Positions 6,119 to 32,591 of a DNA stretch of 64,000 bases are shown here, one piece after another. The notes below the pieces were generated by a model, which did not search any database, was not told the origin of the DNA, and saw only the letters and a program-made list of their open reading frames with translations. This DNA comes from a virus: positions 1 through 64,000 of IMG/VR virus record IMGVR_UViG_3300023199_000021, one strand, 5' to 3'. The position numbers and the translations under genes were made by a program. The first letter of the stretch is position 1; every line of letters begins with the position of its first letter.

Positions 6119-6526
6119 TTAAAACGGAACTTCTTCTTCAATTTCTGCGTCCGCTGCCTTCTTGGGTTTAGCGTTGGTTCCACCACCGCCCCCACCATTG
6201 CTACGTGGGCCAAGATTGATTCGTTCCGCGACAACCTTCAACTTGGAACGCTTGACGCCTTCAGCCGTTTCCCAAGTATCCAGTTCCAAACGTCCTTCCA
6301 CCATAATGAAAGCACCCTTGGTCAAGTACTCTGCAAGCGATTCTGCGTGCTTACCCCAGAGGGTAATGTCAACGAAGGTTGGCTGTTCTTGCTTGTCGCC
6401 ATCCTTCGACCAAACACGATTGGAACACATGCCAACATCGGCAACTGCTGTTCCGTTTGGGGTGTATCGCAGTTCAGTGTCTCTTGTAACTCTACCTGAA
6501 CCGATCCACTTGTTAAGATCACTCAT
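6119..6526 (-). CDS. ssb: single-stranded DNA-binding protein
   Basis: 135 residues from the ATG at 6526 (AGGAG upstream). OB-fold SSB: an N-terminal MSDLNKWIGSGRVTRDTELR strand, FVDITLWGK, AEYLTKGAFIMVEGRLE, then a Gly/Asn-rich linker (about residues 107-120) and an acidic tip EIEEEVPF, the docking site for partner repair and replication proteins. It coats single-stranded DNA in replication and recombination. It is the last gene of the long leftward operon. Confidence 0.93.
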   Translation of the reverse strand: MSDLNKWIGSGRVTRDTELRYTPNGTAVADVGMCSNRVWSKDGDKQEQPTFVDITLWGKHAESLAEYLTKGAFIMVEGRLELDTWETAEGVKRSKLKVVAERINLGPRSNGGGGGGTNAKPKKAADAEIEEEVPF

Positions 6527-6566
6527 TCTTACTCTCCTAGTACACCATTTTTTTAACAAACTTACT

Positions 6567-6797
6567 TTATACACTCACGCCACGGTAGCGAAGTGCTTTT
6601 CGGGCCAGACGACGTGCATATGTGGTGCCATTGTTTCGAACTAGCCTGCGGAATTCACCAGCGAAATCCGTATAAGCTAGACGATTTACTACGTCGCGGG
6701 TCGCAATTTCTCTTGTACTCCAACCTGACAACAGGTTAGTAACATCGTTGTCAGTCTCAAGCAACAGGTTCCAGTCTACAGAATTTGTAGTTCTCAT
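6567..6797 (-). CDS. hypothetical protein
   Basis: 76 residues preceded by GAAAGGACA. Helical and strongly basic at the C-terminus (RRLARKALRYRG), which could bind nucleic acid. It sits one gene upstream of ssb in the same operon. No family recognised. Confidence 0.65.
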   Translation of the reverse strand: MRTTNSVDWNLLLETDNDVTNLLSGWSTREIATRDVVNRLAYTDFAGEFRRLVRNNGTTYARRLARKALRYRGVSV

Positions 6798-6809
6798 AAT
6801 TGTCCTTTC

Positions 6810-7121
6810 TTACTCAGTAAAGAGTAAATCCTCGTTTTGCCAAGTGTCTTGTTCATCCTCAAGGTCGTCCTGATCTAACAGGAACTCGAATGGATTTGGA
6901 TGAATCAAGTGTGTTCCTACGTAAATACTTTTCCCTTTTGACTTCAACCTTGCCCAGTCGTAACCTTCCTCACATACTTCATATGATTTGTGTCTTTTGA
7001 AAGGGCCATAGTTGTCGATCATTAACGCGAACTTCATATCAGGGTTTCCCCTCAAAAGTTGTCTAACTGAATTATACTCTGCTCTGATGGCTTTTCGCAA
7101 TTTTTTTTCAGCTATTTTCAT
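6810..7121 (-). CDS. hypothetical protein
   Basis: 103 residues with a basic N-terminal helix and a very acidic C-terminus (DQDDLEDEQD). Its ATG overlaps the stop of the upstream gene (ATGA), so the two are translationally coupled. Function unknown. Confidence 0.7.
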   Translation of the reverse strand: MKIAEKKLRKAIRAEYNSVRQLLRGNPDMKFALMIDNYGPFKRHKSYEVCEEGYDWARLKSKGKSIYVGTHLIHPNPFEFLLDQDDLEDEQDTWQNEDLLFTE

Positions 7122-7402
7122 GAGTTTTGTAACTGCTCAAAAGGATTTGGAAGTTCTACTTTTTTCGTCACACTACCGTCAGGATTTTGTACCTCGGTTT
7201 GTGTGGCACCTTCCATCGGGTTCTGATTCAATTGTACGTTGCTTTGGCCTTGTGGCGAAACTTTTTCCTCACATTCTCTCAAATGTTCTTGGAGTTTAGC
7301 TAGATACTGCTGGTTTTGTTGCAGGGCTTCTTCCGCCTTCTGGATTTCTTGTTTGACAAAATTGATATAGGCCATTGCCATTTCTTCAAGTGTCACAGCC
7401 AT
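7118..7402 (-). CDS. coiled-coil hypothetical protein
   Basis: 94 residues. Residues about 10-46 form a Gln/Glu-rich coiled coil (EEALQQNQQYLAKLQEHL); the rest is a polar Asn/Gln/Pro tail. Reminiscent of small phage chaperone-like proteins, but no firm match. Confidence 0.65.
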   Translation of the reverse strand: MAVTLEEMAMAYINFVKQEIQKAEEALQQNQQYLAKLQEHLRECEEKVSPQGQSNVQLNQNPMEGATQTEVQNPDGSVTKKVELPNPFEQLQNS

Positions 7403-7410
7403 GTTTTCTC

Positions 7411-7755
7411 CTACTGTTTGTAAGCTTTGATTGATTTGATTTTTCCAAAGTCGTCTATCTCGATAATGTCAACGACATTTATCACTGTGCTGTCCTCTGG
7501 AACTAATGAGTTAATTACTATTACAAACTCTACAGCTATGTACTTATCTCTGTAGGCTGTATTCTGAATATGTACGCTAATCAATCCAGTACTATTAAAC
7601 AATGCCTTATTAACACTGAGTACTTCTTCTTTTCCTTTGACATTTACCGCCCAGTCATGCAGCGTAACGCCATCAGCGTACATTCCATCTAGTGCTTCGA
7701 TATCTTTTGCAGCAAAAGCACCCAGATAATTCTTTACAAATTGTACCCAAATCAT
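7411..7755 (-). CDS. SnoaL/NTF2-like fold protein
   Basis: 114 residues from the ATG at 7755, which overlaps the upstream stop as ATGA. The pattern NYLGAFAAKDIEALDGMYAD, HDW, then alternating strands fits SnoaL-like NTF2-fold proteins. Members are small-molecule isomerases/cyclases or binding proteins. Its place at the end of the glycan genes hints at a role on sugar intermediates (inference). Confidence 0.65.
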   Translation of the reverse strand: MIWVQFVKNYLGAFAAKDIEALDGMYADGVTLHDWAVNVKGKEEVLSVNKALFNSTGLISVHIQNTAYRDKYIAVEFVIVINSLVPEDSTVINVVDIIEIDDFGKIKSIKAYKQ

Positions 7756-8423
7756 GAGCAACGGCCTCCGATTGATCCTACGCCACGAGTCTCTACGTCA
7801 ATATTATACTCGGAAAGTAGCTTTTTTAGGTACTGATTGTTGTGTTTTATGTAGTTTTCGTGCCACTGACCAAGCGGAGTGAAAACTTCTGATAAAGTAT
7901 GGAAGACGCCAGATCGCCAGTAAGACAATCTCCCGTCCGGTTGATCCTTGGGATTGAAATAGTACGCACCTGTGTACCCTGTGGTTTCTAACGAAAGCCA
8001 ATAGAGCATGTTGGCGGTCTTTACCCTAGATACTATTCCTTTCAGGGCCTCAGTCTTGAAGATATGAGGAACCAAAAAAAATAGATTGCTCGTACTTTCC
8101 CACAGGTTCAGTTCTTTGTCGAACTCTTTTGCTTTGTGAATACCTATTCTACGTAGCACGATATAGTCAAGCTCATGCTTCCTTGCTACTTCAACCAGTT
8201 TATTGAGTGCTTTAACATCGGGCTGTTCTACTAGCATGTTATTGATAGGTACAAATAAAACATACTCGTCCTCGATATCTGCCAAAGCATCCACCAAAGT
8301 TTCCTGATTGTTCTCTGCGTCTACCTTTATCACAGAATAGTCAGAGCAAAGCTTCTCCGCTTGCCCTACGATGATCTTGTTCAGATCAGTTTCTTGTTTT
8401 ACTGTACAGAATATTGTTTTCAT
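7752..8423 (-). CDS. glycosyltransferase-like protein
   Basis: 223 residues. Alternating strands and helices with YVLFVPINNMLVEQ, where GT-A enzymes usually keep their DxD, and a YWRSGVFHTL segment near the end. I place it among GT-A-like enzymes mainly by context. It overlaps its neighbours by four bases on both sides. Confidence 0.5.
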   Translation of the reverse strand: MKTIFCTVKQETDLNKIIVGQAEKLCSDYSVIKVDAENNQETLVDALADIEDEYVLFVPINNMLVEQPDVKALNKLVEVARKHELDYIVLRRIGIHKAKEFDKELNLWESTSNLFFLVPHIFKTEALKGIVSRVKTANMLYWLSLETTGYTGAYYFNPKDQPDGRLSYWRSGVFHTLSEVFTPLGQWHENYIKHNNQYLKKLLSEYNIDVETRGVGSIGGRCS

Positions 8424-9256
8424 TTGCCTACCTTCTTAAAGAATTCTTTCAAAATGTAATCGCCATGTATGCCAAAACTAAGCTTGCCTTCCAGTACTTC
8501 TTTTGGAGATAAATGATTTGCTATATATCTGTCTCCCGACTTAGTATACCTAGTCGCCAATGGTTGTTTAACTAACCCTGTAACCAAAGCTTCTAACGAA
8601 AAATTAGAGGCGAGGTCTGGTGGAGCATACTTGATTCCTCTTAATTCAAAGAACGGTCTTTGTGCAAAGGAAAAATACCAATCGTCAAAGTTAGGTTTAG
8701 TAGTGAAGTGGTTTCCATGCCAAGGACAAAGGTGGATTGGGAAGTTGGTACTGGCACAAAGTTCCATCATCCTTTTGCTTCTAATACAGAACCCACTGTT
8801 GCCTACAACCCAATGGTCAGGGATTTCGTCTGTGTCTATCTCTATCTTTTCCTGTTTGGCATAGTAACCTCTGATATGATCTTTGAATAGCTCCTTTGGC
8901 CAAGGGGCACCAATGAAATCATAGTCCAAAAATCTATCGTCCCATTTCTCAAAGTTTAAAGGCCAACCGTCTCCCTGACAAGTCATTATAAAGTCATGTT
9001 TACATAGTTCATGCAACTTAAACATTGCAAAATTCTGATAGTCATTAAAGGTCAGCGGAGTAATAGAAAGGTACTCGATGTTTTCATGACGGTATTCGTC
9101 TACAATTGGAGTAGCAGTCAGAAACTTAACGCTTTTGAATTGAGGTATGTCCAATAACCTAGACAGGTTCTTGCCCAATGCATACATAAAGCTATTGAAG
9201 CCTTCTACATATTCACTATCTCTAGTTTTTCCGTCAATTAAAATACAGTCTATCAT
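8420..9256 (-). CDS. DUF5672-like glycosyltransferase
   Basis: 278 residues from the ATG at 9256, which overlaps the upstream stop. The segments FIMTCQGDGWPLN, YDFIGAPWP and VVGNSGFCIRS match the DUF5672 group of putative glycosyltransferases. It likely adds a sugar to the glycan made by this operon; donor unknown. Cytoplasmic. Confidence 0.7.
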   Translation of the reverse strand: MIDCILIDGKTRDSEYVEGFNSFMYALGKNLSRLLDIPQFKSVKFLTATPIVDEYRHENIEYLSITPLTFNDYQNFAMFKLHELCKHDFIMTCQGDGWPLNFEKWDDRFLDYDFIGAPWPKELFKDHIRGYYAKQEKIEIDTDEIPDHWVVGNSGFCIRSKRMMELCASTNFPIHLCPWHGNHFTTKPNFDDWYFSFAQRPFFELRGIKYAPPDLASNFSLEALVTGLVKQPLATRYTKSGDRYIANHLSPKEVLEGKLSFGIHGDYILKEFFKKVGK

Positions 9257-9978
9257 ACTGGTTGCCTTACTGTATACAGGTCTGTGTGGAACAAGCCAGA
9301 TTTTGTCTCGCTCATTAAACAAATACTAAACGCCTTTCGTATTAGTTTTATTTGTTGTGAAACCAAGTGCCACAGCAGAATAGGTTCGGGATGGAAGTGA
9401 CAGCCTTGCGACAGATAGCTTTCTAGATTGCCCAATATTCCGTTGAAATATTTTTCCATACCCTTTTCTGTTCCTATAGCAAACACGTCTCCGACCCCGC
9501 CTCTCCAATCTCCATGCTGAGGAATGAAGATAGAATTATCGTCAACTAAAATCTTAAGTTTTTCTATAATAGGAACACCTAAGATTATTTTATCGCGATA
9601 CCTAACAACTATGTCGTAGTCTTTATCTTTTTGTTCCTGAAAAACTCTCCAGCACCTTTGTATTTTGTAGTACATTGAAACGATGTTGATCGGTTTAGAT
9701 TCTACCCATCTGTTATAGTCTACCCTTGAGTTAATTTCTTGAAGCTTTTTCTCAGAAAAGAATTTAACCTCATGTTTCGATTGGATATCTATCGCCTTTG
9801 GTTTGTATAGCTCCGAGAATTTATCTACTGGTGCTGTATCGTATGTACTTACGTAAAGATCAACTTCTAAATCTGGACCGCCACCACATTGTCCAAGAAC
9901 TGTTGAACAATAATTGGAATATGTATGATTAAATAATCTAATATCCCCCGGCCATAGTACTGCAACTTTAAAGGACAT
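9253..9978 (-). CDS. putative glycosyltransferase-like protein
   Basis: 241 residues with IVVRYRDKIIL, HGDWRGGVGDVFAIGT and GCHFHPEPILLWHL, the layout of a family of phage and capsule-locus proteins thought to be glycosyltransferases. No experimentally known homologue comes to mind. Start overlaps the sulfotransferase gene by 11 bases. Confidence 0.6.
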   Translation of the reverse strand: MSFKVAVLWPGDIRLFNHTYSNYCSTVLGQCGGGPDLEVDLYVSTYDTAPVDKFSELYKPKAIDIQSKHEVKFFSEKKLQEINSRVDYNRWVESKPINIVSMYYKIQRCWRVFQEQKDKDYDIVVRYRDKIILGVPIIEKLKILVDDNSIFIPQHGDWRGGVGDVFAIGTEKGMEKYFNGILGNLESYLSQGCHFHPEPILLWHLVSQQIKLIRKAFSICLMSETKSGLFHTDLYTVRQPV

Positions 9979-10720
9979 AGTAAGACTGCTTCTTCAATTT
10001 GCCGTGATACATTTCTGTTACAATCCCCGGCATTGTCTTTTCGTATATGTGTTTGATGGTTGTATCTGTCGCTTCGCTCAAGAACAAAAACCTGTAGTTT
10101 TTCTTGGCCTCACGAACCTTTTCTTCGTCCAGTATTGTTTGTATCTGTCGTTTTGTAAACCTAACCCCTATCTTGTCGAGAATATACAAGACATTGAAAT
10201 AAAGGTTTTCGTACTTGAGTAGTGTAACAGATTGAACCTCGGAGTAATGTTTGGAGAAACCATCGAAGTAGCTTTTGATAGACCAGCCATCACCTAGAAC
10301 ATCATTGCCGTTCACGGTAATAAACCCATTCACGTCTACTCTAGGTAAATCTCTTTCTTGAAGATAGAAAGAACTTTCGCTATAAAAAGACGCCATCCAA
10401 TACAGGGGAAACCTAACAAAAGCGAAAATATGCTTACCTTTTAATAGCTCTGGCTTGATATGTTGTAGTCCCACATGCTTACGAAAGAAATTAGGATTGT
10501 CCTCTTTGGAGGCCAGCCATTTTATTCCTTCTTCATTCAAGATATGGTTGTATTCCAAGGAGGTCGGCAAAGGTATCTGGTAGTCATTGTTCGTAGGCAG
10601 AACGTCTCCAAACGATATTTGCCTGTCTTTATACGTATCAAATGCATTAAGAACTTGAGCAACAAAGCACCCTGCGGTCTTTGGAATGTGTACAAAAATA
10701 AAGTCGTTGCCTATGATCAT
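9968..10720 (-). CDS. sulfotransferase
   Basis: 250 residues. FIFVHIPKTAG at residues 8-18 is the PAPS 5'-phosphosulfate loop of sulfotransferases, and AFVRFPLYWMASFYSE fits the 3'-phosphate binding strand. It should move sulfate from PAPS to a hydroxyl, here most likely on the glycan. ATGA overlap with the methyltransferase upstream. One of two sulfotransferases in the operon. Confidence 0.8.
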   Translation of the reverse strand: MIIGNDFIFVHIPKTAGCFVAQVLNAFDTYKDRQISFGDVLPTNNDYQIPLPTSLEYNHILNEEGIKWLASKEDNPNFFRKHVGLQHIKPELLKGKHIFAFVRFPLYWMASFYSESSFYLQERDLPRVDVNGFITVNGNDVLGDGWSIKSYFDGFSKHYSEVQSVTLLKYENLYFNVLYILDKIGVRFTKRQIQTILDEEKVREAKKNYRFLFLSEATDTTIKHIYEKTMPGIVTEMYHGKLKKQSYYVL

Positions 10721-11424
10721 TTTTTAGCCTTGATTAAACACCTTTGTTCAAAAGCAGAGTCAATACCGGCATCAAATATCTTAATATTTACGTTGTTATA
10801 ACCAGCTTCATTTAAATCCGTCTTGATTGGTTCTTCAAGAAATTCAACGTAGGAGTAGTTTGTTCTGGCCCATGAAGGGGTCGTATCGCTTTCATAGCTA
10901 ACACCTAGAGATTGCCATGCCTCTTTTACCTTGCCATAGCCTCCAAAGATAATCAATTCTCCGCCGTCTTTTAATTTACTATACAAATCTTTGAGATAAT
11001 AGAGCCTCAATGAATGCAATGCTATGTGGTGAAACACAAATTTAGAGTACACTACATCATAACGGTCGTTTGGTATCTCTTTTAAGTTCCAAGTAAATAA
11101 ATAACCAGAACAGTTATACACATATCTGTTCTCAAGGTTTTGCTGGAAAAGTCTAAGCATCTTCGAAGAGATATCTGCTCCGTCAATCTGTTTAAACTGT
11201 TTGTGCCAAGCGATAATATCTCTGCCTATGCCACAACCAAAGTCAAGACATACCTTCTCTGGATCAGGCTGCAAACCAATAGCGGCTAGATTTCTTAGGG
11301 GGGCTTCTGCCGGTCCACCCAATATACAATTGTCTTGCTTAAGTATTTCGTCAAGCTCGCTAGGCAGATCTGATTCAATAAACTGTTTCACATAACCGAC
11401 ATAATTTTTATGGTCAAGATTCAT
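10717..11424 (-). CDS. SAM-dependent methyltransferase
   Basis: 235 residues. Class I fold: motif I LDFGCGIGRDI near residue 59, DGADISSKML, then YDVVYSKFVFHHI, a post-I loop common in small-molecule methyltransferases. Substrate probably a sugar of the same pathway (context). Confidence 0.8.
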   Translation of the reverse strand: MNLDHKNYVGYVKQFIESDLPSELDEILKQDNCILGGPAEAPLRNLAAIGLQPDPEKVCLDFGCGIGRDIIAWHKQFKQIDGADISSKMLRLFQQNLENRYVYNCSGYLFTWNLKEIPNDRYDVVYSKFVFHHIALHSLRLYYLKDLYSKLKDGGELIIFGGYGKVKEAWQSLGVSYESDTTPSWARTNYSYVEFLEEPIKTDLNEAGYNNVNIKIFDAGIDSAFEQRCLIKAKK

Positions 11425-12787
11425 AGTTATTCAAGAACCTTTCTAGGTCTTCCGGCGTACCCAATCCCCACATATCTTTGCGGGCTATGTTGAAAATCTT
11501 TATCTTTTTACCGTCTTCAATAGCCTCTTGGAATACAGGACACACATAGAACTCACCATTAAATCTGTTATCATTAGCAATCATTTGTTCTGCGTATTTC
11601 ACATAGTCAGAACCCTTAGCCCAATAATATATGCCAACAGTAGCTATATCGCTAATAGGTTCTTTCTCAGCTACTTCACAAACAAAACTATCTTCGCCAA
11701 GACGAACGTAGCTCCATTTCGGGTGGTGAGATTTAAATGTAAGGATACCTGCGTCGATATTGTCTCCCTGCATTGAATACATAAACTCGTTTGAATCCCA
11801 GTTAACATACTGGTCTGAGTTAGCTATCAACAATGGGTTATCGTTGTCGATCAGTTCTTTGGCAAGTAAAGTAGTGCAAGCAGCACCTTCTGTCACACCA
11901 TCGACCTGAATTATTTGACAGTTTTTCACGAGCGAACGCAATAGTGTTTCCAAATGATACTTTTTATAGTGTGACTTTTGAACAATGAAGATATGTCTTG
12001 CTTCGATGTTCAGGTTGTCTACCACTGTTTGAATCATTGTCTTTCCATTAACATCAATGAGAGGTTTAGGAAAGGAGTATCCGGCTTGCTCAAATCGTGA
12101 CCCTGCCCCCGCCATTGGGATTAGGACGTTCATTCTTTTACTCTGCCACTTGTGTTGTTTTTCTGTTTTGTTTATTGTGAAGATTGTTTTTAGCATATCT
12201 ATCCTGCTAACCTCAGAAGGGCTATTAACAGGATGCAAATGGGCACCAGAGTCAAGTGCTGCCTTACGACCAATGTACGAATCTTCAACGATCAAGGTCT
12301 GCTTAGGCGAGACTCCCGCTTTAATTATACTGCGGAGAAACATTTCTGGATTCGGTTTTGGGTTTTTTACGTCCTCGTTTGAAAAAATTTCATCTACATA
12401 CTCAATGAATCCTTTTCGCAGCAACATCATCTTTACGGTATTCTTGATCGAATTAGACGCTACATGTATACTGTATCCGTCTTGCTTGAACATTCTTAAT
12501 GAAGAACGTATTCTTTCATCGTACTCCATTTCGTTGATCAACTCGACCGTCTTTTGTTGTTTCGCCGCCCATATCTGACGATGTAGTTTCTCTGGCAAAC
12601 CCTTTTGTTCGGTCAGCGTGGCGAGTTTCTTTACCGTAGGAAGCCCATCGTAGCTCGACAGGTGTTCCTCTCGGCTGATTTTATATTCCTCCCCCACTTC
12701 GGCAAGGGCCAAGTTTAAAGCCTCGTAGTGAATTTCCTTGGCGTCTACCAGAACACCGTCTAGATCAAAGATCAGGTGTCTAATCAT
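11414..12787 (-). CDS. HAD hydrolase / sugar nucleotidyltransferase fusion
   Basis: 457 residues in two parts. Residues 1 to about 205 are a HAD phosphatase (IFDLDGVLVDA nucleophile motif, VASNS motif II, LIVEDSYIGRKAA). Residues about 219-457 are a GT-A-type nucleotidyltransferase (NVLIPMAGAGSRF, FPKPLIDVNGK, IANSDQYV). It could remove a sugar phosphate and activate a sugar to its NDP form, like heptose or hexose activation enzymes. The fusion is continuous with no internal stop. Confidence 0.85.
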   Translation of the reverse strand: MIRHLIFDLDGVLVDAKEIHYEALNLALAEVGEEYKISREEHLSSYDGLPTVKKLATLTEQKGLPEKLHRQIWAAKQQKTVELINEMEYDERIRSSLRMFKQDGYSIHVASNSIKNTVKMMLLRKGFIEYVDEIFSNEDVKNPKPNPEMFLRSIIKAGVSPKQTLIVEDSYIGRKAALDSGAHLHPVNSPSEVSRIDMLKTIFTINKTEKQHKWQSKRMNVLIPMAGAGSRFEQAGYSFPKPLIDVNGKTMIQTVVDNLNIEARHIFIVQKSHYKKYHLETLLRSLVKNCQIIQVDGVTEGAACTTLLAKELIDNDNPLLIANSDQYVNWDSNEFMYSMQGDNIDAGILTFKSHHPKWSYVRLGEDSFVCEVAEKEPISDIATVGIYYWAKGSDYVKYAEQMIANDNRFNGEFYVCPVFQEAIEDGKKIKIFNIARKDMWGLGTPEDLERFLNNYES

Positions 12788-12788
12788 G

Positions 12789-13517
12789 TTATCCCCACAT
12801 ACATGGCGTCATCGACTTATGTTTTGAGAAATAGCCTCTCTTAAATCCTTCTGTCTTTAAGAAGGGGTTGAGTGTAGAACCTATGTCTAGGTAAGTATTC
12901 TTGTCGTTATGTTCAGTGAATCTATGACACAGTATATTGCCGAAAGGACCACAACAGAAAAGGAAAAGCCATCCTTCCATCTGATCTTCATCAATGATCT
13001 TTATCATACGCTCAAGTTTATGATGGCTGGCTATCCAAGCATTGTTTGTTACTGTACAAAAAATCTTAGGCTCAAAAGGCAGTCTACTAACAACTGAGTT
13101 TTCATGAGCGACTAATGCTACATTGTAATCGTTAAACAAAGGAACGATATTGTCAAGATAGTATTGGTAGTTAGAGTTTACCCATAAGTTAGCCCAAGTC
13201 AATCGCTCGTCTGGTTGTCCACTGAACACCTTCATTTCTAGGTGGGTCAATTCGCCCTGACAACACGGACAAGAAATACCTACATGGTAATGAGGATTCT
13301 TATATTGAAAAGATTCAATAAGCCTATCTCTTGCGTCTGAAAACTCTTTCCCTTCCTTAAACCAAAACTCTCGATTGTTAAGGTCTTTGTCCATCATCAC
13401 CGCCCACTCTCCATCTGCAAACTTAGAGAAAGAGAACGGCTCTTTGTTTCGTAGTTTTTCTTCAAACACTTTAATGTCTTGATCAAAGTGCTTATTCGGT
13501 GGTAGTCCCAGATTCAT
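12789..13517 (-). CDS. GT-D-type glycosyltransferase-like protein
   Basis: 242 residues from the ATG at 13517 (AGGAAG upstream). FSFSKFADGEWAVMM near residue 27 resembles the SxxRxxDGE-type site of DUF1792/GT-D glycosyltransferases. The rest alternates helices and strands. Overlaps the remnant upstream by 26 bases. Confidence 0.6.
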   Translation of the reverse strand: MNLGLPPNKHFDQDIKVFEEKLRNKEPFSFSKFADGEWAVMMDKDLNNREFWFKEGKEFSDARDRLIESFQYKNPHYHVGISCPCCQGELTHLEMKVFSGQPDERLTWANLWVNSNYQYYLDNIVPLFNDYNVALVAHENSVVSRLPFEPKIFCTVTNNAWIASHHKLERMIKIIDEDQMEGWLFLFCCGPFGNILCHRFTEHNDKNTYLDIGSTLNPFLKTEGFKRGYFSKHKSMTPCMWG

Positions 13518-14211: not shown

Positions 14212-14790
14212 TATTCACTTTCTCATATACAAAAAACTTAGCACCGCTTCTCGGCATGCATTCTTTTTGTTGATAAACAAGATTGATACCGGCGTCATAC
14301 TTTGATTCTAGATACTGTCGCCATTCAGAATTGTATAGGTGTGCCCCTCTCCCAAAGTTTTCAGGAGGATTGCAACTATCTTGAGCGTAGATAACAATGA
14401 GTTTATCTGCCTTCTCAAACAGCTTGTCTACTGTGGCTCGCATATAGTCTTGTTCTTCACCTAAAATATGGTACAAGACATCAATACACATGGTCATATC
14501 GCATGAGGGACCATCATATTCGTCAAACCTACTGTTAATTATAATACTAAACCTTTATATTTATATTCGGCATCGAAAATGTCAATACCAGTGTAGTCTG
14601 CTTTGACTTGCTTAGCAAGAGACAGGTCGCCGTGTCCAAAGTCCAGAACGGTTTTGATATCGTACTTATCAACGTACTCATTAACCAATTCTACTTTGAA
14701 TTTTAGCAGATCGCCAACGCTTCCAAAACCACTGGTGCCGTGGAGCGACTTTGTATTATATCTCTTTCTCCAATAATCTATTGATCTCAT
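14195..14790 (-). pseudogene. SAM methyltransferase, split by a frameshift
   Basis: From the ATG at 14790 (GGAAGACAAAAG upstream): SIDYWRKRY, TVLDFGHGDLSLAKQV (motif I) and YTGIDIFDAEYKYKG, ending at a TAA near 14545. The adjacent frame carries on with DEYDGPSCDMTMCIDVLYH and a full C-terminal half. One indel near 14540-14550 would restore a normal enzyme of about 198 residues. Confidence 0.65.
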
Positions 14791-15374
14791 TCTTTTGTCT
14801 TCCTTATACAAAGTACTCCGCAGTTCAAGCGTGTGTATCTCGGATTAGGTAAGTCCGAGTTGCCACCATTCAACCTTGGAAGTTCATCAGATATTTTTCT
14901 GTTAAATTCATTCTCAAAGGCCGTTAGGTTCAGACCGGGATAATCAAATGTAATGATTAGTAGCCCGCCTTCTTTTACCTGTTGGTAAAGATTGTCCAAA
15001 ATTCTAATGTGCGGAAAGTTTCTAACTTCTTCAACAGTAGAAACATTCAAAACTATATCGTACCTTTCCTGCAATCCACCTTGTCTTCTGGTGATATCGT
15101 AGTAAAAAGTATTGGGCTGTTCCGACCTTCTAATGTCTGAACTTTCCACCGCCTCCATAGAGAACTTGTTCTCAATGCATTCTTTGAAGATAACATGTAC
15201 GCCCTCAAAGCCCCACGATGTATTGTGAATCAGTGGTTTTTCTACGTCGGAGTACTTGTCTATCAAGTCCAGCACCATTGGGTACTCGTATAGTCTAGAC
15301 CAAGCACCTTTGAACCTAAACATATCGTCGTGCCGATCCTCTGTTGATATGAATCTGAATTCTAGAATTTCCAT
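14787..15374 (-). CDS. methyltransferase-like protein
   Basis: 195 residues. IVLNVSTVEEVRNF and GGLLIITFDYPGL are the motif IV and post-IV parts of class I methyltransferases; the glycine-rich motif I is weak. ATGA overlap with the gene below. Probably acts on the glycan or is a decayed relative. Confidence 0.6.
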   Translation of the reverse strand: MEILEFRFISTEDRHDDMFRFKGAWSRLYEYPMVLDLIDKYSDVEKPLIHNTSWGFEGVHVIFKECIENKFSMEAVESSDIRRSEQPNTFYYDITRRQGGLQERYDIVLNVSTVEEVRNFPHIRILDNLYQQVKEGGLLIITFDYPGLNLTAFENEFNRKISDELPRLNGGNSDLPNPRYTRLNCGVLCIRKTKE

Positions 15375-16018
15375 TAAGCTACCTCGAATGTTTTTATTGC
15401 ATTTTTATACAAAGCAAAGTCTTTCTCGTAGTACTTTTCTACGATCCTTTTGTCTTTTCTGTTTAGGTGTTTCTTCTTGTGTTCCGACTTGTTTTTCTTA
15501 GAAGGAAACTTGTCTGCCTCATGAGAAAGAGTGTGTATGAAGGATGACAGTTCTTCTAATGGAACAAGAGTTACCTTGCGGGGAGGAATGAAGAAGTTGA
15601 TTGAATCGAACGACGACTCCAAATGACTCACTACCCAATACTTTTGATACCACATGTTTCCACGTTCTTTATGATCAAGCGTCACGCATACGTTTCGGAT
15701 AGTATCGAATTCTTCTCTTAGTTCAAAGCCTCGCTTCAAAAACTTTCTGAAAGAAAATCCTTTGTCAAATATATCCGCACACCTAGCATTACCTAGTGGG
15801 TTATGAACCAACCACTTATAGGCAGACAAAGCCTTATCGTAAGGGTCGCGGATCACACTAAACACTTTGGGGTTACGTTTGTATTCTTTCTGGAACAATA
15901 CGTATTGTGCATTGTGAACGCATGGAGTCACAATTAAAACGTCTTCCTTAAGTTTTGTAGACTGTAAGAAAGACTGCGTTGATTCTCCTACACTCTTGGT
16001 TATCCTGATCCAGATCAT
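15374..16018 (-). CDS. sulfotransferase family protein
   Basis: 214 residues. N-terminal WIRITKSVGES matches the PAPS loop in degenerate form; KVFSVIRDPYDKALSAYKW at about residues 50-68 is the strong 3'-phosphate motif. Sulfotransfer_2-like. With the enzyme at 9968..10720 this gives the operon two sulfation steps. Confidence 0.75.
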   Translation of the reverse strand: MIWIRITKSVGESTQSFLQSTKLKEDVLIVTPCVHNAQYVLFQKEYKRNPKVFSVIRDPYDKALSAYKWLVHNPLGNARCADIFDKGFSFRKFLKRGFELREEFDTIRNVCVTLDHKERGNMWYQKYWVVSHLESSFDSINFFIPPRKVTLVPLEELSSFIHTLSHEADKFPSKKNKSEHKKKHLNRKDKRIVEKYYEKDFALYKNAIKTFEVA

Positions 16019-17031
16019 TTTACTTCTCGTTCGAGTATCTTGCGTATTTTAGCCGCAGAGTTACCGTCTCCATATGGACAAGGTTGGTCTACAATAAACT
16101 TGTTGTCCTGCTCAAGCAAGGCTACACGTTCTTCTAAGTTTTCTGGTTGTTGACACATGTATGCGAACACACCGATACCTTCGATTCTTTCTGTTGCCTT
16201 ACGACATACTATTGCTTTCTTCTTTAGGAACGAAGATTCTTCTTGAATGCCACCGCTATCGGTGATAACATACTTACACTTTCGCAACAGATCAATACAC
16301 TGTTTGTGTTCTACTGCGTCAATCACTTCCACATGTTCGAGTAGGTGTTTGTTCTCTTGTAGCTTAGGATTCGGATGCATAGGAAAGATGAACTTGTGAT
16401 GGGTTCTTGCCTTTGCTACCTTATCTATCTCTTTGAACCATTCTTGTATTTGATCTAGATTTTCTCGACGATGCATGGTAACTAGAACAAAGTCCCAAGT
16501 CTCAATAGGTTTAATATCAACCAAAGCGTCAAGCACAGTGTTGCCTACAACATATACGTTCTCTGCTCCTTCGCCTCTACATTTGTAGATATTGTACAGG
16601 GCACCCACTGTAGGACACAGATGAATGCTGGCGAGAGCAGTAATTGCGGCACGATTAAATTCTTCTGGATAAGGGTCGTTATCCCACGTTCTAAGTCCAG
16701 CCTCTAGGTGAATCACCGGAGCTTGTCGATGAAAAGCAGCAAGAGCAACAGCAAAAGCGGTTGTGGTATCCCCCTGCACTATAACATGACTCGCTCCGTA
16801 CATGTTACTTGGGATTTGTTGAAGTATAGAGGAAATAATAGAGTCCAATCGCATATCGCATTGATCCTCAATCTTCAAGTCAATAGTGTCGTACTGCTGA
16901 GCCTCTTTGTCTATAAGACTAGTGTGTTGCCCGGTGAATAGAATCTTGTACGGCATCACGCCTTCGATAGCGTCGATAACCGGTTTGATTTTAATCCACT
17001 CTGGCCTTGTTCCATATGCAATCAATAACAT
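16015..17031 (-). CDS. wecB: UDP-GlcNAc 2-epimerase
   Basis: 338 residues from the ATG at 17031 (TAATG overlap with the upstream stop). Near-full length for WecB/MnaA: AYGTRPEWIKIKPVI, LFTGQH, VQGDTTTAFA, HLEAGLRTWDNDPYPEEFNR, TMHRREN and ITDSGGIQEES. It converts UDP-GlcNAc to UDP-ManNAc in the cytoplasm. Together with the dehydrogenase at 18839..19768 it may supply UDP-ManNAcA. Confidence 0.92.
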   Translation of the reverse strand: MLLIAYGTRPEWIKIKPVIDAIEGVMPYKILFTGQHTSLIDKEAQQYDTIDLKIEDQCDMRLDSIISSILQQIPSNMYGASHVIVQGDTTTAFAVALAAFHRQAPVIHLEAGLRTWDNDPYPEEFNRAAITALASIHLCPTVGALYNIYKCRGEGAENVYVVGNTVLDALVDIKPIETWDFVLVTMHRRENLDQIQEWFKEIDKVAKARTHHKFIFPMHPNPKLQENKHLLEHVEVIDAVEHKQCIDLLRKCKYVITDSGGIQEESSFLKKKAIVCRKATERIEGIGVFAYMCQQPENLEERVALLEQDNKFIVDQPCPYGDGNSAAKIRKILEREVK

Positions 17032-17735
17032 TACCAATCCACCTTTATAAGCATTGTTTTGCTTCTAATTTCTTTGCTGGTTATTTCGTAGTCTTTACGT
17101 TTGTTGTGAATGTTGTTGTCAACAACCTCTTTATTTTCCTTGAGGTTGTGAAGTATTTCATTGTTAACTTCGTAGCTTCCTCCCTTGATACCATACGTCC
17201 TATTACCACAGTCTCCGTCTTCATCAAGACAAACTGCGGGTATATCACCAAAGTATATTTGGTTGTAAGGAATATGTTCAATGGCTTTCGCCGTTAGAAG
17301 ATGGTCCTCGCACCCCCAACCTTGCATCCGGTTTGTCATCCCACCTATCTTTTCAAACGCCTGAGTGCTTGATGTAAAGAAGATGTATCCAATACCTTTG
17401 TTCTGCATGAAGTTCTCTGCTTGTTTTGCCATTACATTAGGAGTATAGATCGTAAAGAATCTAATTTCTCCACGACGACATAGCAGTTGCCCAAAATGTC
17501 TGGGGCCAAATGCTATTATAGTATCGACCGGCAGATAACAAAATGTATCATCGGGACCACATTGTAACAGGTCAAATCCTATATTTATTGATTTACCTAA
17601 GTTGTATTGCCTATCGTTATCTTGCTGAACAATTATTAGTTCATGCTCGGTCTTTCTAAGCATATACTCATAAACAGGCAGTACCTTGTTTAGATAAACT
17701 TCTCTGTCTCTTTGTGGTATTACTAACTTAAGCAT
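17031..17735 (-). CDS. GT-A glycosyltransferase
   Basis: 234 residues. Starts LKLVIPQRDR, has a DDTFCYLPVDTII nucleotide-binding region and, near residue 133, GGMTNRMQGWGCEDHLL, the acceptor-side motif of galactosyltransferase-like GT2/GT7 proteins. Likely one of the chain-building enzymes. Confidence 0.8.
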   Translation of the reverse strand: MLKLVIPQRDREVYLNKVLPVYEYMLRKTEHELIIVQQDNDRQYNLGKSINIGFDLLQCGPDDTFCYLPVDTIIAFGPRHFGQLLCRRGEIRFFTIYTPNVMAKQAENFMQNKGIGYIFFTSSTQAFEKIGGMTNRMQGWGCEDHLLTAKAIEHIPYNQIYFGDIPAVCLDEDGDCGNRTYGIKGGSYEVNNEILHNLKENKEVVDNNIHNKRKDYEITSKEIRSKTMLIKVDW

Positions 17736-18148
17736 TTTATTCTTAGTTTAATTTCTGTTGTACAAGTCCCGTTTCCATAAGGCAAGTAAACGAGTACTAT
17801 TCCTTTATCATTCAACCACTCTTGAGTAAAGCCCATTTGTGAGTAGTAGTCTCTGGTCGCCCAGTCTGAGCCTACAGCAATGATCTGCGGCTGAACCTTT
17901 TCAATAGCAATCTTGCTATCGGCCCCGCCCTCATTGCACACTACTTCATCAACATACCTACAACCCAAGAGTACCCTTTTTCTTTCTTCGTAAGGTATAA
18001 CCGGAGCTACACCTTTGTATGCCTCAATGAATTCGTCAGTGTTCAGGCTTACAATAACTTTATCGGCCAATGCCTTACAAAACTTTAAAAAATCGACGTG
18101 TGAAGCATGGAACAAATCAAAAGTCCCGCCTGTATAAAGCCTTTTCAT
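17723..18148 (-). CDS. cytidylyltransferase-like enzyme
   Basis: 141 residues from the ATG at 18148 (ATGA overlap). YTGGTFDLFHASHVDFLK near residue 5 is the nucleotidylyltransferase signature of glycerol-3-phosphate cytidylyltransferase-like proteins, though the usual HxGH reads HASH. The C-terminus has a CTTEIKLRIK segment where ISTTxIxxRI is typical. It may form a CDP- or NDP-activated polyol or sugar. Confidence 0.75.
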   Translation of the reverse strand: MKRLYTGGTFDLFHASHVDFLKFCKALADKVIVSLNTDEFIEAYKGVAPVIPYEERKRVLLGCRYVDEVVCNEGGADSKIAIEKVQPQIIAVGSDWATRDYYSQMGFTQEWLNDKGIVLVYLPYGNGTCTTEIKLRIKCLS

Positions 18149-18897
18149 CACTCAGCCTTGTCTCTTTGAAGTCTCCATCCAAGCCCACGTAGCCTTTGAA
18201 CCACAGCGTTTCTTTCTTTGTAAAACTTGTTGTGGTTTCTTACAGCAGAACTTGCGACTGCATCAATACCTAACTGGACACCATACAACGAACTCCATTT
18301 CTTTCTGTCGTTCATTGGGTGCGGAGGAACATATGTGTTGATACCACCATGTATTTGACACATTGCAGAGAAATGCATATCTTCTCCATTATCCCATACT
18401 GGTTTTTCCATCCACATGTATTTGATATATTCAGCGGGGAAGAACCAAGCGTGACCAACAAGGTCAACTTCTACTGTTTGCTCATTGGCATTTACCCAAC
18501 CGTCTCTGATGTTAGGTTGATACGCACAGTCTGTACGTAGACGCACACCAACGCCTCCCATGATGCCGGGAGTTTCGTGGTGTGTATTAATACAATTCTC
18601 AAACCATTCAGGACCGGGAATAGTATCGTCATCAAAGATAGCAGTAAACTCAGTGTCCACCAAGCACGCCAAAGCGAACCTACCACAGTACTTCCAATTG
18701 TAGTTGGATGGTACAGTTCTGATGTTGTGTTCTTTGATCAGCTTCTCTACCTCTCCCCAATCAAAATAGTGGAGTTCTTCTGAGTCATTCATCCAGATAA
18801 AGATTTGTTCTGGAGGAATAGTCTGCTTTAGTAGAGATTCAATCTGTGCTTGGAGATTCTGTGGTCTGCGGTAACAGTTCAGAATTACAGTTATCAT
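18148..18897 (-). CDS. GT2 glycosyltransferase
   Basis: 249 residues. VILNCYRRPQNLQAQIESLLKQ at the N-terminus and AIFDDDTIPGPEWFEN (DDD metal site near residue 90) are GT2 family motifs. The gene starts inside the end of the UDP-sugar dehydrogenase gene (59-base overlap). Confidence 0.85.
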   Translation of the reverse strand: MITVILNCYRRPQNLQAQIESLLKQTIPPEQIFIWMNDSEELHYFDWGEVEKLIKEHNIRTVPSNYNWKYCGRFALACLVDTEFTAIFDDDTIPGPEWFENCINTHHETPGIMGGVGVRLRTDCAYQPNIRDGWVNANEQTVEVDLVGHAWFFPAEYIKYMWMEKPVWDNGEDMHFSAMCQIHGGINTYVPPHPMNDRKKWSSLYGVQLGIDAVASSAVRNHNKFYKERNAVVQRLRGLGWRLQRDKAE

Positions 18898-19768
18898 TTA
18901 ATACAGCCCTTCCTTTTAGTTTTTCCCATTCAAGGTCGCCCCTGATATCAACATTGTAATTCCAAGCCTCAGCTAACATTTCAAATGGTAGACCGTTATC
19001 CTCAAGAAGATTAATCATACCAGATAAGTCCTTCGGGAAACAACTTCCGCCAAATCCTCGCTTACCATCAGGACCGGGAACCTGCCAGTGTAGATCGCCC
19101 AGTCTTGGATCGGCCTGAATAGCCTTGTCGATAAACTGCGTGTAATCAATATCTAACGTATCGCATAGATCGTATATATGATTAGCAAAAGTAACTTTCA
19201 TCGAGAAGAAAGTGTTAGTAAGATACTTGATCATTTCGGCCTCTGTAGGAGTAACAAACACGCACTCACAACGAGGCCCCCATATTCCTTTGTGGAATGA
19301 TTCAAGGTTACGTCGGATAGGATTTGATTTCGGTTGAATCAATCCAAATAGATGTTTCTTAGCTGATCTGAAATCTTCATAAGCGTTACGCTCAGTCAAA
19401 AACTCAGGGTTGGTTACTAAGATCAAATTGCTATGTTCCTCTAGCATATCCATAGTGGTGCCGGGAACCATTGTAGATTTAAGAAGTACTATTGGACACT
19501 TATTATGTTCTCTAGCCCAAAAATTCAGGAGTCTCACGGCCTCCCTGACTATGCCTGTATAGCACTTGCCGTTGCCGTCCATCGGGGTCGGCAAACAAAG
19601 ATAAATGATATCTGAATACGTGACTACTTTAGAATACCCGTAGTCTGCCTCGATACCACCTTTAATGTCGTATGAGATTACGTCGTGATCCGAATGTTCA
19701 TTAAGAAGTTTCTCGATAGCTCCACCAACGAACCCACGTCCAATAATTCCTATGCGTAATTTCAGCAT
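18839..19768 (-). CDS. UDP-sugar 6-dehydrogenase
   Basis: 309 residues. Rossmann start IGIIGRGFVGGAIE, CLPTPMD, a STMVPGTT segment, VTNPEFLTE, and the catalytic-Cys loop GFGGSCFPKD near residue 246. It oxidises the C6 alcohol of a UDP-hexose with NAD: UDP-glucose to the uronate, or UDP-ManNAc to UDP-ManNAcA given the epimerase beside it. It lacks the last third found in many homologues of 390 residues or more. Confidence 0.88.
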   Translation of the reverse strand: MLKLRIGIIGRGFVGGAIEKLLNEHSDHDVISYDIKGGIEADYGYSKVVTYSDIIYLCLPTPMDGNGKCYTGIVREAVRLLNFWAREHNKCPIVLLKSTMVPGTTMDMLEEHSNLILVTNPEFLTERNAYEDFRSAKKHLFGLIQPKSNPIRRNLESFHKGIWGPRCECVFVTPTEAEMIKYLTNTFFSMKVTFANHIYDLCDTLDIDYTQFIDKAIQADPRLGDLHWQVPGPDGKRGFGGSCFPKDLSGMINLLEDNGLPFEMLAEAWNYNVDIRGDLEWEKLKGRAVLNDNCNSELLPQTTESPSTD

Positions 19769-19770
19769 AA

Positions 19771-20610
19771 TTATCCTTCCACAATACTCCAGAATTTCTT
19801 TGGAGATTCGCTACACAATTTGTGTAGTCCTTCTAGCCCATGCTTTTTGAAGTCATGGACAGCACCAATGTTATCACTACAATCCAGCTTCATACCGCAT
19901 AAGATTGCTTCTCCTACCGCCCGACAGAAAGGTTCAAACTTCATTGGGTGATAGTATAATGTTTCGTATTTGTTAAGTAGATCAGGGACCCTACTGTAAT
20001 CGACCTTGCCAAGCCATTCTACGTTAGGCATTGATCTAGCGGTTAGTTCAAGGTTCGGGGAACCCCACGCTGCCACCACAAAGCGTTTGTTTGGGTTCAT
20101 CAGAGCATATCTAAAGAAGTTCTGAGTCCCCTTTAAATAATACATAAACCCCATATACAAAATTTTATTTTCTCTGTTATTTTCTCTGTTGAAAAACAGC
20201 TTTGTGTCAATCGGAGAGGTAATGATATCGGCATTAGGAAAGATATCACCATACAACTCTTTGAATGTATTCAGGTGATATTCAGACAGGAAGAAGTTGT
20301 GCTTAGTAGAACCAAACAGATTTTTTCTGAGTCTTTCAGGCAGGTATGAGTTAGAGTCATGTTCATAGCGAACGTGAAACGGATGGTTCAGCAAAAACTC
20401 TACAACTTTACTGCGACGATACAGATGCTCAAGGTTTCCTGAAACCACCAGATCAAACTCGCGTGCTAGCAACTCGTCCTGACTATCGTAGTTGAAGAAC
20501 TCGATTGTAAGTCCTCGTTCTTGTCCTTCTTGTATGATGAAAGAGTCTGTCCTTTGGGCACCACCGATATTGTGCTTCAATCCAAAATCAGCTATCCATA
20601 AGACTTTCAT
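19771..20610 (-). CDS. GT4-like glycosyltransferase
   Basis: 279 residues, GT-B fold: VLWIADFGLKHNIGGAQRTD at the N-terminus and FCRAVGEAILCGMKL near residue 235, the E-x7-E-like donor site of GT4 enzymes. Shorter than usual at about 360 residues. Uses an NDP-sugar; acceptor unknown. Confidence 0.8.
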   Translation of the reverse strand: MKVLWIADFGLKHNIGGAQRTDSFIIQEGQERGLTIEFFNYDSQDELLAREFDLVVSGNLEHLYRRSKVVEFLLNHPFHVRYEHDSNSYLPERLRKNLFGSTKHNFFLSEYHLNTFKELYGDIFPNADIITSPIDTKLFFNRENNRENKILYMGFMYYLKGTQNFFRYALMNPNKRFVVAAWGSPNLELTARSMPNVEWLGKVDYSRVPDLLNKYETLYYHPMKFEPFCRAVGEAILCGMKLDCSDNIGAVHDFKKHGLEGLHKLCSESPKKFWSIVEG

Positions 20611-21175
20611 TCAACACCCTATTCCTTCCAAATATCTTATCGTAATTGAAGAAACGCCACCTGTTGTACGTCTCTACATGTTCATCATAGCATACATGCT
20701 TTATATATTCATGAAGATCGTACCATTCGTCAAAGAACATTTCATGGCGACATACGCTATACATCCAGTTAGGAATAGCCGCCTTACCTTGACGACAACA
20801 TACCATGACAGGTTTTCTTTGATAAGCAGCCATACAGTTCTCGTGGTATGAGCCACACATATGGGCATCGCGATCAATATAAAGAATCAATGCGTCCGCT
20901 TTGTCTACCATACGATAGTCGTCAGCAGCAACAGGTTTCATTTTCTCGTGTACTTCTTGATATCTACTCTGTTGTTTAAGCATGTTGATTTTTTTGTAGT
21001 ATAAGTCATCCTCGTTCTCCGAATCAAACATTGGCTTATCGCTAGGGCAAAGTACTCCTATGTTATGATTCCATAGAAAGCTTTTAATCCTAGTCCTCCA
21101 ACCGGCACCCCGGTCGGCTACATCGTCCATTGGGCCAGCCAAATAGAACATGGCCCCATCAAGTCTATGCTTCAT
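20588..21175 (-). CDS. nucleoside 2-deoxyribosyltransferase-like protein
   Basis: 195 residues from the ATG at 21175, overlapping the upstream stop as TAATG. FYLAGPMDDVADRGAGWR near residue 9 and VDKADALILYIDRDAHMCGSYHE match nucleoside deoxyribosyltransferase/TIR-SAVED-like Rossmann proteins. It may exchange bases on deoxynucleosides or act on nucleotide-linked sugars. Confidence 0.7.
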   Translation of the reverse strand: MKHRLDGAMFYLAGPMDDVADRGAGWRTRIKSFLWNHNIGVLCPSDKPMFDSENEDDLYYKKINMLKQQSRYQEVHEKMKPVAADDYRMVDKADALILYIDRDAHMCGSYHENCMAAYQRKPVMVCCRQGKAAIPNWMYSVCRHEMFFDEWYDLHEYIKHVCYDEHVETYNRWRFFNYDKIFGRNRVLNESLMDS

Positions 21176-21684
21176 TATCCTGTTACACCTACTACTACCA
21201 TTCTCCACAAGGCACCAGTCCCGCTAACGTCCTCTAAGGTGAACTGGCGATCACTGGCACCTACGCTGGCACCAGAAATAGGATCACTGTATTGCCAAAC
21301 AGCATACGGCTTAATCAGTTGATTGCCTGAACCACCGTTCCATGGTTCGGTCCACGCCGTTCCACCAGTCGCATGAATAGCGATATCGGCACCGAATACA
21401 GTTTCCATGTTCTCTACAACTATACTCTTGACTTTAGAAAATTGGATGGATGCATTTGTACCAAATACAACTTTTTCTAGTGCCTGCAAATTAAAAATCT
21501 CTTTCCCACCCGATGGCAAGGTTCCACTTGCAATAACACCGTAGTTGACCTGTAACGATCCGGTTCCATTAGTCAAAGCCTGACTATAATCAAGAGAAGC
21601 TGATTCGTTCTGGGTGTTTGCTCCAGTTTTGATCAATGTAAAGTTTACATCGTTCTCAATCGTTGCGGTTGCATTAATATTCAT
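21175..21684 (-). CDS. virion-associated beta-rich protein
   Basis: 169 residues, Gly/Thr/Ser-rich beta protein with AVWQYSDPISGASVGASDRQFTL-type repeats near the end, like small phage collar or tail-associated proteins. It is the only structural-looking gene on the minus strand; perhaps it displays the glycan or binds it. Confidence 0.5.
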   Translation of the reverse strand: MNINATATIENDVNFTLIKTGANTQNESASLDYSQALTNGTGSLQVNYGVIASGTLPSGGKEIFNLQALEKVVFGTNASIQFSKVKSIVVENMETVFGADIAIHATGGTAWTEPWNGGSGNQLIKPYAVWQYSDPISGASVGASDRQFTLEDVSGTGALWRMVVVGVTG

Positions 21685-21692
21685 TTAGTCCC

Positions 21693-22130
21693 CTATCTTC
21701 TTCTCAATTTAACATGTTTCAGCCTATACGGTTCTAGGTATGTTCCGGTTATTTCCGACTTCTTCGCTGGACCCATGTACAGAAAGGTATATGCAGTGTC
21801 TTTGTTGGAGGCACCATAGGCTTGGATGCCCCGCTCGGTAATTTCCGCAACTTTAAATACACCAGTACTGCCCATGCAGATTTTTTCACCTGCGGCACCG
21901 TCTTCGGAGTCTCGTTGAGAGATATAATAAGGACCAGTACCTTGGATTACCTTAATATATGACCCAATTTCCAGTTCTCTCCAATTTTTTACTTCATTTT
22001 TGATAGGAGTGTTCTTGGAAATGAACTCATTACCACAATGCTTACAAACACGTTGTCTGGAGGCATTGATCTCTTTACAGGATGGACACAACTTCTGTCC
22101 ACGACGCAACTTAACCTTCTGGTTCTTCAT
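21693..22130 (-). CDS. zinc-ribbon protein
   Basis: 145 residues. N-terminal CPSCKEINASRQRVCKHCG is a four-Cys zinc ribbon; the middle is a small beta domain (YIKVIQGTGPYYIS). The protein begins and ends with the similar basic string KVKLRR. Nucleic-acid binding is plausible. Confidence 0.7.
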   Translation of the reverse strand: MKNQKVKLRRGQKLCPSCKEINASRQRVCKHCGNEFISKNTPIKNEVKNWRELEIGSYIKVIQGTGPYYISQRDSEDGAAGEKICMGSTGVFKVAEITERGIQAYGASNKDTAYTFLYMGPAKKSEITGTYLEPYRLKHVKLRRR

Positions 22131-22458
22131 ACTCTAAATCTCCATGCCAATTGTGGATATCGAAAACTACTCTGTGCAAAATATCTACTACATAGCCGGG
22201 ATAGTACTCATACAATCCTATGTCAAATTTAATAGGCTTGGGTAGTTTTGTGAACTTATTCCCAAGCCTAAAATGATTGAAATAGTCTTCGTAGAATTTC
22301 TCAGCTACAGGAGGCCACTTAACGCTGTAAACTATGCTTCCGCGATAATTTAACATCGTTAATACTTTTGGACTGACCTCAACACACTTATGATCAAGGT
22401 CAAATGCTTCCTGACACGCCAACGACAGTGGACAGCGACCACGTTTGGATTGTCCCAT
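22111..22458 (-). CDS. hypothetical protein
   Basis: 115 residues from the ATG at 22458. The first in-frame ATG (22491) lies inside the -10 box of the promoter and would not be in the RNA. First gene of the 16-kb operon that holds the glycan genes. Aromatic-rich (FYEDYFNHFRLG); no family recognised. Confidence 0.65.
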   Translation of the reverse strand: MGQSKRGRCPLSLACQEAFDLDHKCVEVSPKVLTMLNYRGSIVYSVKWPPVAEKFYEDYFNHFRLGNKFTKLPKPIKFDIGLYEYYPGYVVDILHRVVFDIHNWHGDLEYEEPEG

Positions 22459-22489
22459 CTTGATATGCTTTCGGCGTACTACAATCTCC

Positions 22490-22516
22490 ATTATACCATA
22501 ATTTTCCGATTGTCAA
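22490..22516 (-). promoter_or_regulatory. sigma70 promoter of the glycan/ssb operon
   Basis: TTGACA at 22511-22516, 15-bp spacer, GG-TATAAT at 22490-22495. It is the only clear promoter found upstream of the run of overlapping genes down to ssb at 6.1 kb. Confidence 0.7.
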
Positions 22517-32509: not shown

Positions 32510-32591
32510 TTCCCACAGTCGATCCAAGGCCCATAAGAACCAAAACAAAAGGCGATGCGACCTTTTTCTGAGGCTTGTACGAACCTCATAG

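Follow-up and report, generated by a model that had tools for sequence, protein, structure and literature searches.

An apparently exchangeable phage cassette for a putatively sulfated glycan, built around a recurrent glycosyltransferase and epimerase core

Glycan gene islands, sulfotransferase genes and glycosylated virions are all known kinds of phage equipment. In mycobacteriophages, glycans occur on capsid and tail-tube subunits and have been linked to phage glycosyltransferase (GT) genes (Freeman et al. 2023, as described in PMC12619734). Sulfotransferase genes of marine phages form a second parallel (PHROG 3347 and PMC10580990): Sulfotransfer_3 genes of OM43-type metagenomic phages and of Synechococcus phage S-SRM01 were presented there as auxiliary genes with a function that 'remains unclear' (PMC10580990). 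A third parallel is found in bacterial O-antigen and capsule loci, with their constant flanks, variable middle and enzymes such as an epimerase, perosamine synthetase, N-formyltransferase and GDP-mannose 4,6-dehydratase (GMD). Here, we describe a glycan cassette that resembles such bacterial loci but is located on a phage and is predicted to use soluble GTs only, without flippase, polymerase or ligase. It lies in a stretch of 64,000 nucleotides (the window), representing bases 1-64,000, about half, of the 130,845-bp IMG/VR record IMGVR_UViG_3300023199_000021 of an uncultured marine tailed phage. Its new elements are an exchangeable slot, a core of three genes that recurs in other phages, and sulfotransferase-like genes adjoining this core. 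In the open-access texts searched, we found neither the core trio nor its exchangeable accessories, nor sulfotransferases within such an operon. As read from its genes, the window phage combines donor synthesis, sulfotransferases and the core.

The cassette proper spans positions 7,752-20,610 and comprises ~15 genes, mostly with an intergenic spacing of -4 to +12 bp; all genes given below with coordinates between 6,119 and 21,684 are on the minus strand. It is flanked by SSB-like and SnoaL-like genes at one end and, at the opposite end, by the genes for u169, a Zn-ribbon-like protein and u126. The initial annotation had drawn a single operon from 6,119 to 22,491. The tight spacing agrees with an operon, but the flanking genes fall outside the cassette and the run is interrupted by lesions. 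Named enzymes were checked by Pfam profile search, and selected proteins were also compared using PHROG, PDB and hhalign. The core consists of a GT2 gene (18,148-18,897; PF00535, 6e-7), a UDP-GlcNAc 2-epimerase gene that was correctly recognized at the outset (16,015-17,037; PF02350, 3.5e-67; PDB 5enz, 1.5e-47) and a GT-D-like glycosyltransferase gene (12,789-13,535), whose product stays under the profile threshold of PF22882 (2e-4; 21.1 bits, cut-off 27). The core genes are not contiguous in the window: the cytidylyltransferase and GT7 genes intervene, as do those of ST2 and the methyltransferases.

A scan with an epimerase alignment identified 48 phage loci (33-58% identity), 46 of which have a complete epimerase open reading frame (ORF). 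Clustering of the genes neighbouring these 46 epimerases showed that GT2 and GT-D-like genes both occur on the same strand within 5 kb in 36 loci, and that both directly adjoin the epimerase in 23. These loci are mostly independent, as the epimerases fall into ~39 clusters at 80% identity. Epimerase residues D90, E112, E126 and H189, whose roles we assume to be those of WecB, are invariant in 47 phage proteins, and the family match is full-length. The DDD and ED residues of GT2 are invariant in 41 proteins, and homologues of the GT-D-like protein, present in ~41 epimerase loci, have invariant DGE and D-x-G motifs. Of the 47 epimerase-core records searched, many of which are fragmentary, only 3 carry the window-type major capsid protein (MCP; 66-67%); the core may therefore not be confined to the lineage of the window phage.

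Two sulfotransferases had been proposed within this cassette. ST2 (15,374-16,018) passes the PF03567 threshold (3.4e-5; 24.5 bits, cut-off 22) and matches phage PF03567 proteins with hhalign (E 2e-9, probability 96). Its motifs MIWIRITKSVGEST and IRDPYDKALS (R-x7-S), which align to phage PF03567 members, presumably act as the 5'-phosphosulfate-binding (5'-PSB) and 3'-phosphate-binding (3'-PB) motifs, respectively. ST1 (9,968-10,720) displays a 5'-PSB-like FVHIPKTAG (HIPKTAG) and a 3'-PB-like FVRFPLYWMAS (R-x7-S), along with weak matches to phage PF03567 proteins (hhalign, E 7e-5, probability 63) and to PHROG 3347, 'galactose-3-O-sulfotransferase' (0.0036). It has a distant syntenic homologue (24% identity), no relative was returned by the viral scan, and its AlphaFold model is too low in confidence for reading the fold (pLDDT 29.7). 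The profile searches proposed with the initial annotation thus recover ST2 but not ST1, which the motifs and weak matches mark as a probable sulfotransferase dependent on 3'-phosphoadenosine-5'-phosphosulfate (PAPS).

Sulfotransferase-like genes of several subfamilies adjoin the core in six contigs, namely the window and loci L082, L181, L147, L150 and L188. The L181 gene matches PF03567 (1e-13), whereas those of L147, L150 and L188 form one family (L147: PF13469, 4e-4, under cut-off). Two PF03567 genes are located ~8 kb from the core in L160. Genome G010 (MCP 74%) encodes several PF03567 proteins, at least four of them above cut-off, and a Stf0-type protein (PF09037, 4.8e-7); one of its PF03567 genes adjoins GT-like genes and an SDR dehydratase gene. 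The pairing of donor synthesis with sulfotransferases, singled out in the initial annotation, is supported and recurs in G010 and in the five other loci where sulfotransferase-like genes adjoin the core. Whereas the sulfotransferases of PMC10580990 were reported as auxiliary genes, those described here are part of a glycan-assembly operon, and their position inside a recurrent module suggests a direct, testable role for them.

The cassette can be compared with two relatives. Locus L082 of record G021 (52.9 kb), the sole relative found by an IMG/VR scan with ST2, has the same flanks as the window and cassette genes at ~45-67% identity in an almost unchanged order: GT1, dehydrogenase, GT2, epimerase, ST2 (53%), two methyltransferases, GT-D, HAD/nucleotidyltransferase and cytidylyltransferase. 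Next come a second sulfotransferase-like gene, just short of the PF03567 threshold (21.2 bits, cut-off 22), and a GT-like gene. Alignment scans with ST2, u169 and GT1 yielded nothing beyond known relatives or near-copies of them. As judged from its sequence, the cassette, most of which is kept in this second phage, is far beyond chance. The closest complete relative, G001 (126 kb, MCP 92%), shows collinearity with the window genome along most of its sequence. Both edges of its slot match the window, with u169, GT1 and the dehydrogenase at one end and gtA, SnoaL and SSB at the opposite end. The genes between them differ and encode a DegT aminotransferase, a formyltransferase, several GTs and methyltransferases of the FkbM and other types; neither an epimerase nor a PF03567 match was found. 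These same flanks around a different middle indicate that the locus is a slot for glycan cassettes that, by gene content, is exchangeable among related phages. The G001 aminotransferase most closely matches perosamine synthetases (3bn1, 4.7e-67, 230 bits; next non-perosamine match 175 bits), and the best matches of the formyltransferase include GDP-4-amino-4,6-dideoxymannose formyltransferase (5vyr, 5e-16). Together with the GMD common to both phages, whose product would be used, GDP-N-formylperosamine is predicted. If true, a putative N-formylperosamine cassette versus a sulfated ManNAc-type one in syntenic genomes would constitute a serotype-like pathway exchange, and viruses would diversify their coats as bacteria diversify their O-antigens.

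The constant part of the locus comprises GT1 (19,771-20,610; PF00534, 6.7e-7; 58% in G001, 55% in G021), a short nucleotide-sugar dehydrogenase (18,839-19,768; 55% in G001, 44-46% in G021) and the β-rich protein u169 (21,175-21,684; 53-56% in G001 and L082, same order). At the opposite edge are gtA (7,752-8,423), with a 34% G001 orthologue at the same edge, the SnoaL-like protein (7,411-7,761; PF12680, 1.4e-10; 42-44% in G001 and G021) and a protein that we take from its sequence to be SSB-like (6,119-6,574; 73-78% identity to the G001 and G021 orthologues, same place); the latter two genes are conserved flanks, and the SSB-like gene is not a glycan gene. As initially noted, a GT90-like glycosyltransferase (48,551-49,630, plus strand; PF05686, 3.8e-11; 37-48% in three relatives) and GMD (49,632-50,786, plus strand; PF16363, 2.5e-117; 1rpn, 1.9e-93) are encoded in the late operon. 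This pair is located upstream of terL, and at least 12 relatives retain GMD at 61-76% identity.

The predicted chemistry starts from UDP-ManNAc, which is well supported by enzyme family as the epimerase product. Its oxidation to a ManNAcA-like sugar, as initially proposed, is not upheld. The dehydrogenase was rejected as a WecC-type UDP-ManNAc dehydrogenase: its closest solved relatives are UDP-glucose dehydrogenase (3vtf, 1.8e-21) and GDP-mannose dehydrogenase (1mfz, 4e-20), with UDP-ManNAc dehydrogenase Cap5O far behind (4e-4). It contains PF03721 and PF00984, as annotated, but the third (C-terminal, UDP-binding) domain was not found, likewise in G001 and G021. As G001 moreover has the dehydrogenase without an epimerase match, an epimerase-dehydrogenase pair was discarded. 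The HAD phosphatase/nucleotidyltransferase fusion (11,414-12,787; PF13419, 3e-26, and PF00483, 3e-10; 67% in L082) and the TagD/ECT-like cytidylyltransferase (17,723-18,151; PF01467, 1e-15; 3elb, 7e-22; 1coz, 4e-15) are both Pfam-supported, in line with their first annotation, and suggest a second activated precursor (sugar or polyol). Synechococcus phages S-PRM1, S-CAM9 and S-8S55 share the fusion as full-length homologues (~58% identity), whereas INPHARED contains no match to GT2 and the GT-D-like protein (at E 1e-5) or to either sulfotransferase.

About seven GT-like proteins had been counted, five of which have profile support. Besides those described above, these include a DUF5672 protein (8,420-9,256; PF18922, 4e-14), annotated in Pfam as of unknown function and GT-like by our assumption, and a GT7-like, galactosyltransferase-type protein (17,031-17,735; PF02709, 4.8e-6). 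The two without Pfam support are gtA, which matches no Pfam family above cut-off and no PHROG and whose GT role is unsupported, and the possible GT gtX (9,253-9,978), which matches PHROG 13607 of unknown function (7e-13) and shows a probable C-terminal frame change on frame comparison. A nucleoside 2-deoxyribosyltransferase-like protein (20,588-21,208; PF15891, 1.4e-5, under cut-off), previously included in the pathway, probably belongs to nucleotide metabolism rather than to glycan synthesis.

The best explanation for this gene set, to which we give an even chance, is that a sulfated, exchangeable glycan is assembled in the cytosol on virion proteins; the sugar identity, sulfation, acceptor and role are all inferred. 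A constant outer part (dehydrogenase, GT1 and u169; SnoaL and SSB; GMD and GT90 of the late operon) would frame a variable middle in which the epimerase makes UDP-ManNAc, GT2 and the GT-D-like protein transfer sugars, and the HAD/nucleotidyltransferase and cytidylyltransferase supply a further activated sugar or polyol. Methyltransferases, two of them broken, would be accessories of this middle, and one or two PAPS-dependent sulfotransferases would modify the chain using PAPS from the host. Most likely, these soluble enzymes would work in the cytosol and assemble the chain directly on proteins of the virion, so that the particles would acquire a negatively charged and exchangeable coat.

The main competitor is a host-directed role, in which the glycan is placed on an envelope polysaccharide or protein of the host during infection and blocks superinfection or alters receptors. 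Planctomycetota are polysaccharide-rich and sulfatase-rich, and Planctomycetota-type genes in relatives (see below) hint at such a host. Temperate-phage GTs provide a precedent for surface modification (PMC12619734). A simple hydropathy scan detected no transmembrane-like segment in the cassette proteins, and none of the proteins of ≥ 150 aa encoded in the genome looked like a multipass membrane protein, hydrophobic tape-measure stretches aside. Hence, no flippase, polymerase or ligase is predicted, and a lipid-linked O-antigen or capsule route lacks its machinery. The soluble GTs are moreover numerous. The cassette diversity within the lineage fits decoration of the particle equally well or better, and we consider host-surface modification unlikely. 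By analogy with mycobacteriophage virion glycosylation, a virion protein would be the simplest acceptor that remains. Among the roles initially listed, virion decoration is accordingly favoured and host-surface remodelling becomes less likely.

Several points weigh against assembly of a sulfated glycan on virion proteins. No curated profile confirms ST1, which has no Pfam match at E up to 0.1, and a PF03567 match is missing in 43 of the 47 epimerase-core records, so sulfation would be an accessory option rather than the rule. The lack of the C-terminal domain makes the activity of the dehydrogenase doubtful, and the window copy has two broken methyltransferases. No acceptor was identified: u169 is a linked candidate whose gene adjoins gt1 or lies close to it in the relatives detected, but its structure model has a low confidence (pTM 0.57) and its PDB matches (needle knobs, viral jelly rolls, carbohydrate-binding modules and others) are too weak to use. 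Its designation as candidate virion protein or acceptor is speculative. Finally, no cultured phage with this cassette and a demonstrated glycan was found.

The glycan could also be attached to phage DNA bases, with sulfation as a later step of hypermodification. Base-modification systems with a GT and a sulfotransferase have been proposed for phages (PMC10829341, in a passage citing earlier work), and the slot adjoins the SSB-like gene. The number of GTs is far above what base modification needs. The check for base-modifying enzymes covered the ThyA-family enzyme (genome 124,216-125,181), others not being searched systematically; this enzyme has GVPFN rather than Asp, which we take to distinguish thymidylate synthases from hydroxymethylases, and this argues weakly against DNA as the acceptor. 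We consider this option decidedly improbable.

The lesions in the cassette raise the question of whether it is decaying cargo, acquired from a polysaccharide locus of a bacterium and largely without function in the window phage. Among the methyltransferases annotated, two are open, i.e., a SAM methyltransferase (10,717-11,424; PF13649, 1.7e-11) and a methyltransferase-like protein (14,787-15,374; PF13489, 0.0012, under cut-off; 57% in L082), and two are broken, which weakens the initial proposal of a methylated glycan. The methyltransferase-like gene mtC (14,195-14,811) is split by a frameshift into two ORFs (14,195-14,497 and 14,539-14,811), both matching one intact 194-aa L082 gene at 55%. 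The other, mtB (13,492-14,211), has no homologue in L082 and shows, by eye in a three-frame translation, an apparent nonsense codon and two frame changes. The comparison with G001 covered 72 genes and showed no frame break, and that with G021 covered 45 and showed one (mtC), so the lesions seem clustered in the cassette; the former count does not support general sequencing error as their cause. The cassette also has a low GC content of 40.0%, the fourth lowest among 241 genome windows of equal size. Yet the remaining cassette genes are open and mostly kept in G021, core catalytic residues are invariant, and the cassette type persists across diverged phages. The lesions would fit a real loss of modification genes, while a local assembly error is possible. 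Decaying cargo is highly improbable in our assessment, and decoration of virion proteins is retained as the preferred reading.

The host is suggested by genes of the relatives. G010 encodes DUF1501 (1e-133), PSCyt1/PSCyt2/PSD1 and SBP_bac_10 proteins, which we assume to be typical of Planctomycetota. Of 45 records that are related or carry the core, 12 encode DUF1501, with up to four copies each, G001 (19,262-20,380) and G021 (32,564-33,685) among them, but the window genome lacks it; SBP_bac_10 occurs in G010 only. DUF1501 is not exclusive to Planctomycetota, as it was also found in 2 of 14 control genomes. Based on these genes, a Planctomycetota host is predicted with moderate confidence, and the finding points to Planctomycetota phages, few described examples of which were found in the literature searched. 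Planctomycetota are described as binding sulfated polysaccharides and taking them up whole. In a rather unlikely scenario, a widespread and previously undescribed GT2/epimerase/GT-D-like module with exchangeable accessories, independently acquired sulfotransferases among them, would give virions variable sulfated coats that, in a lineage infecting Planctomycetota, serve both as adhesion bait for this uptake and as a shield. A search of bacterial contigs for the MCP returned five metagenome-assembled genomes from four unrelated groups; these hits were judged mis-binning and were not used. The G010 DUF1501 genes are located at 51,662-55,952, and a PF03567 sulfotransferase gene is present between the PSCyt1/PSCyt2/PSD1 protein gene and DUF1501.

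Relatives of the MCP number at least 599 in IMG/VR, and none occurs among 50,697 phage records; by this protein, the window phage is a member of a large lineage without INPHARED representatives. Genes for a terminase with a probable intein, portal, protease and MCP were read from the sequence and relatives, and 16 tRNA genes are present in the window. MCP and portal match no Pfam family at E 0.01. The intein-like element in TerL (52,096-55,398) is a ~345-aa insert with intein-like ends that does not occur in the G001 TerL. An MCP paralogue (BLASTP, E 3e-15) with a twin-arginine-like N-terminus is encoded in the replication-side block (genome 108,426-109,457; L108:4426-5457). Two structural-type ORFs at 61,446-62,484, read in different frames and with an 86-bp overlap, may represent a single frameshifted gene. 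A 237-bp exact repeat occurs at window positions 1-237 and 35,601-35,837 and at genome positions 130,609-130,845, the copy at 35,601 being a third, internal one. It covers the common 5' part of two lipoprotein-like genes and also forms the contig ends. The synteny with G001 continues across these ends, supporting a circular or permuted complete genome. Outside the cassette, additional GT, nucleotidyltransferase and TylF-type methyltransferase genes are located at genome positions 89,621-96,809, 113,331-114,882 and 128,315-129,406.

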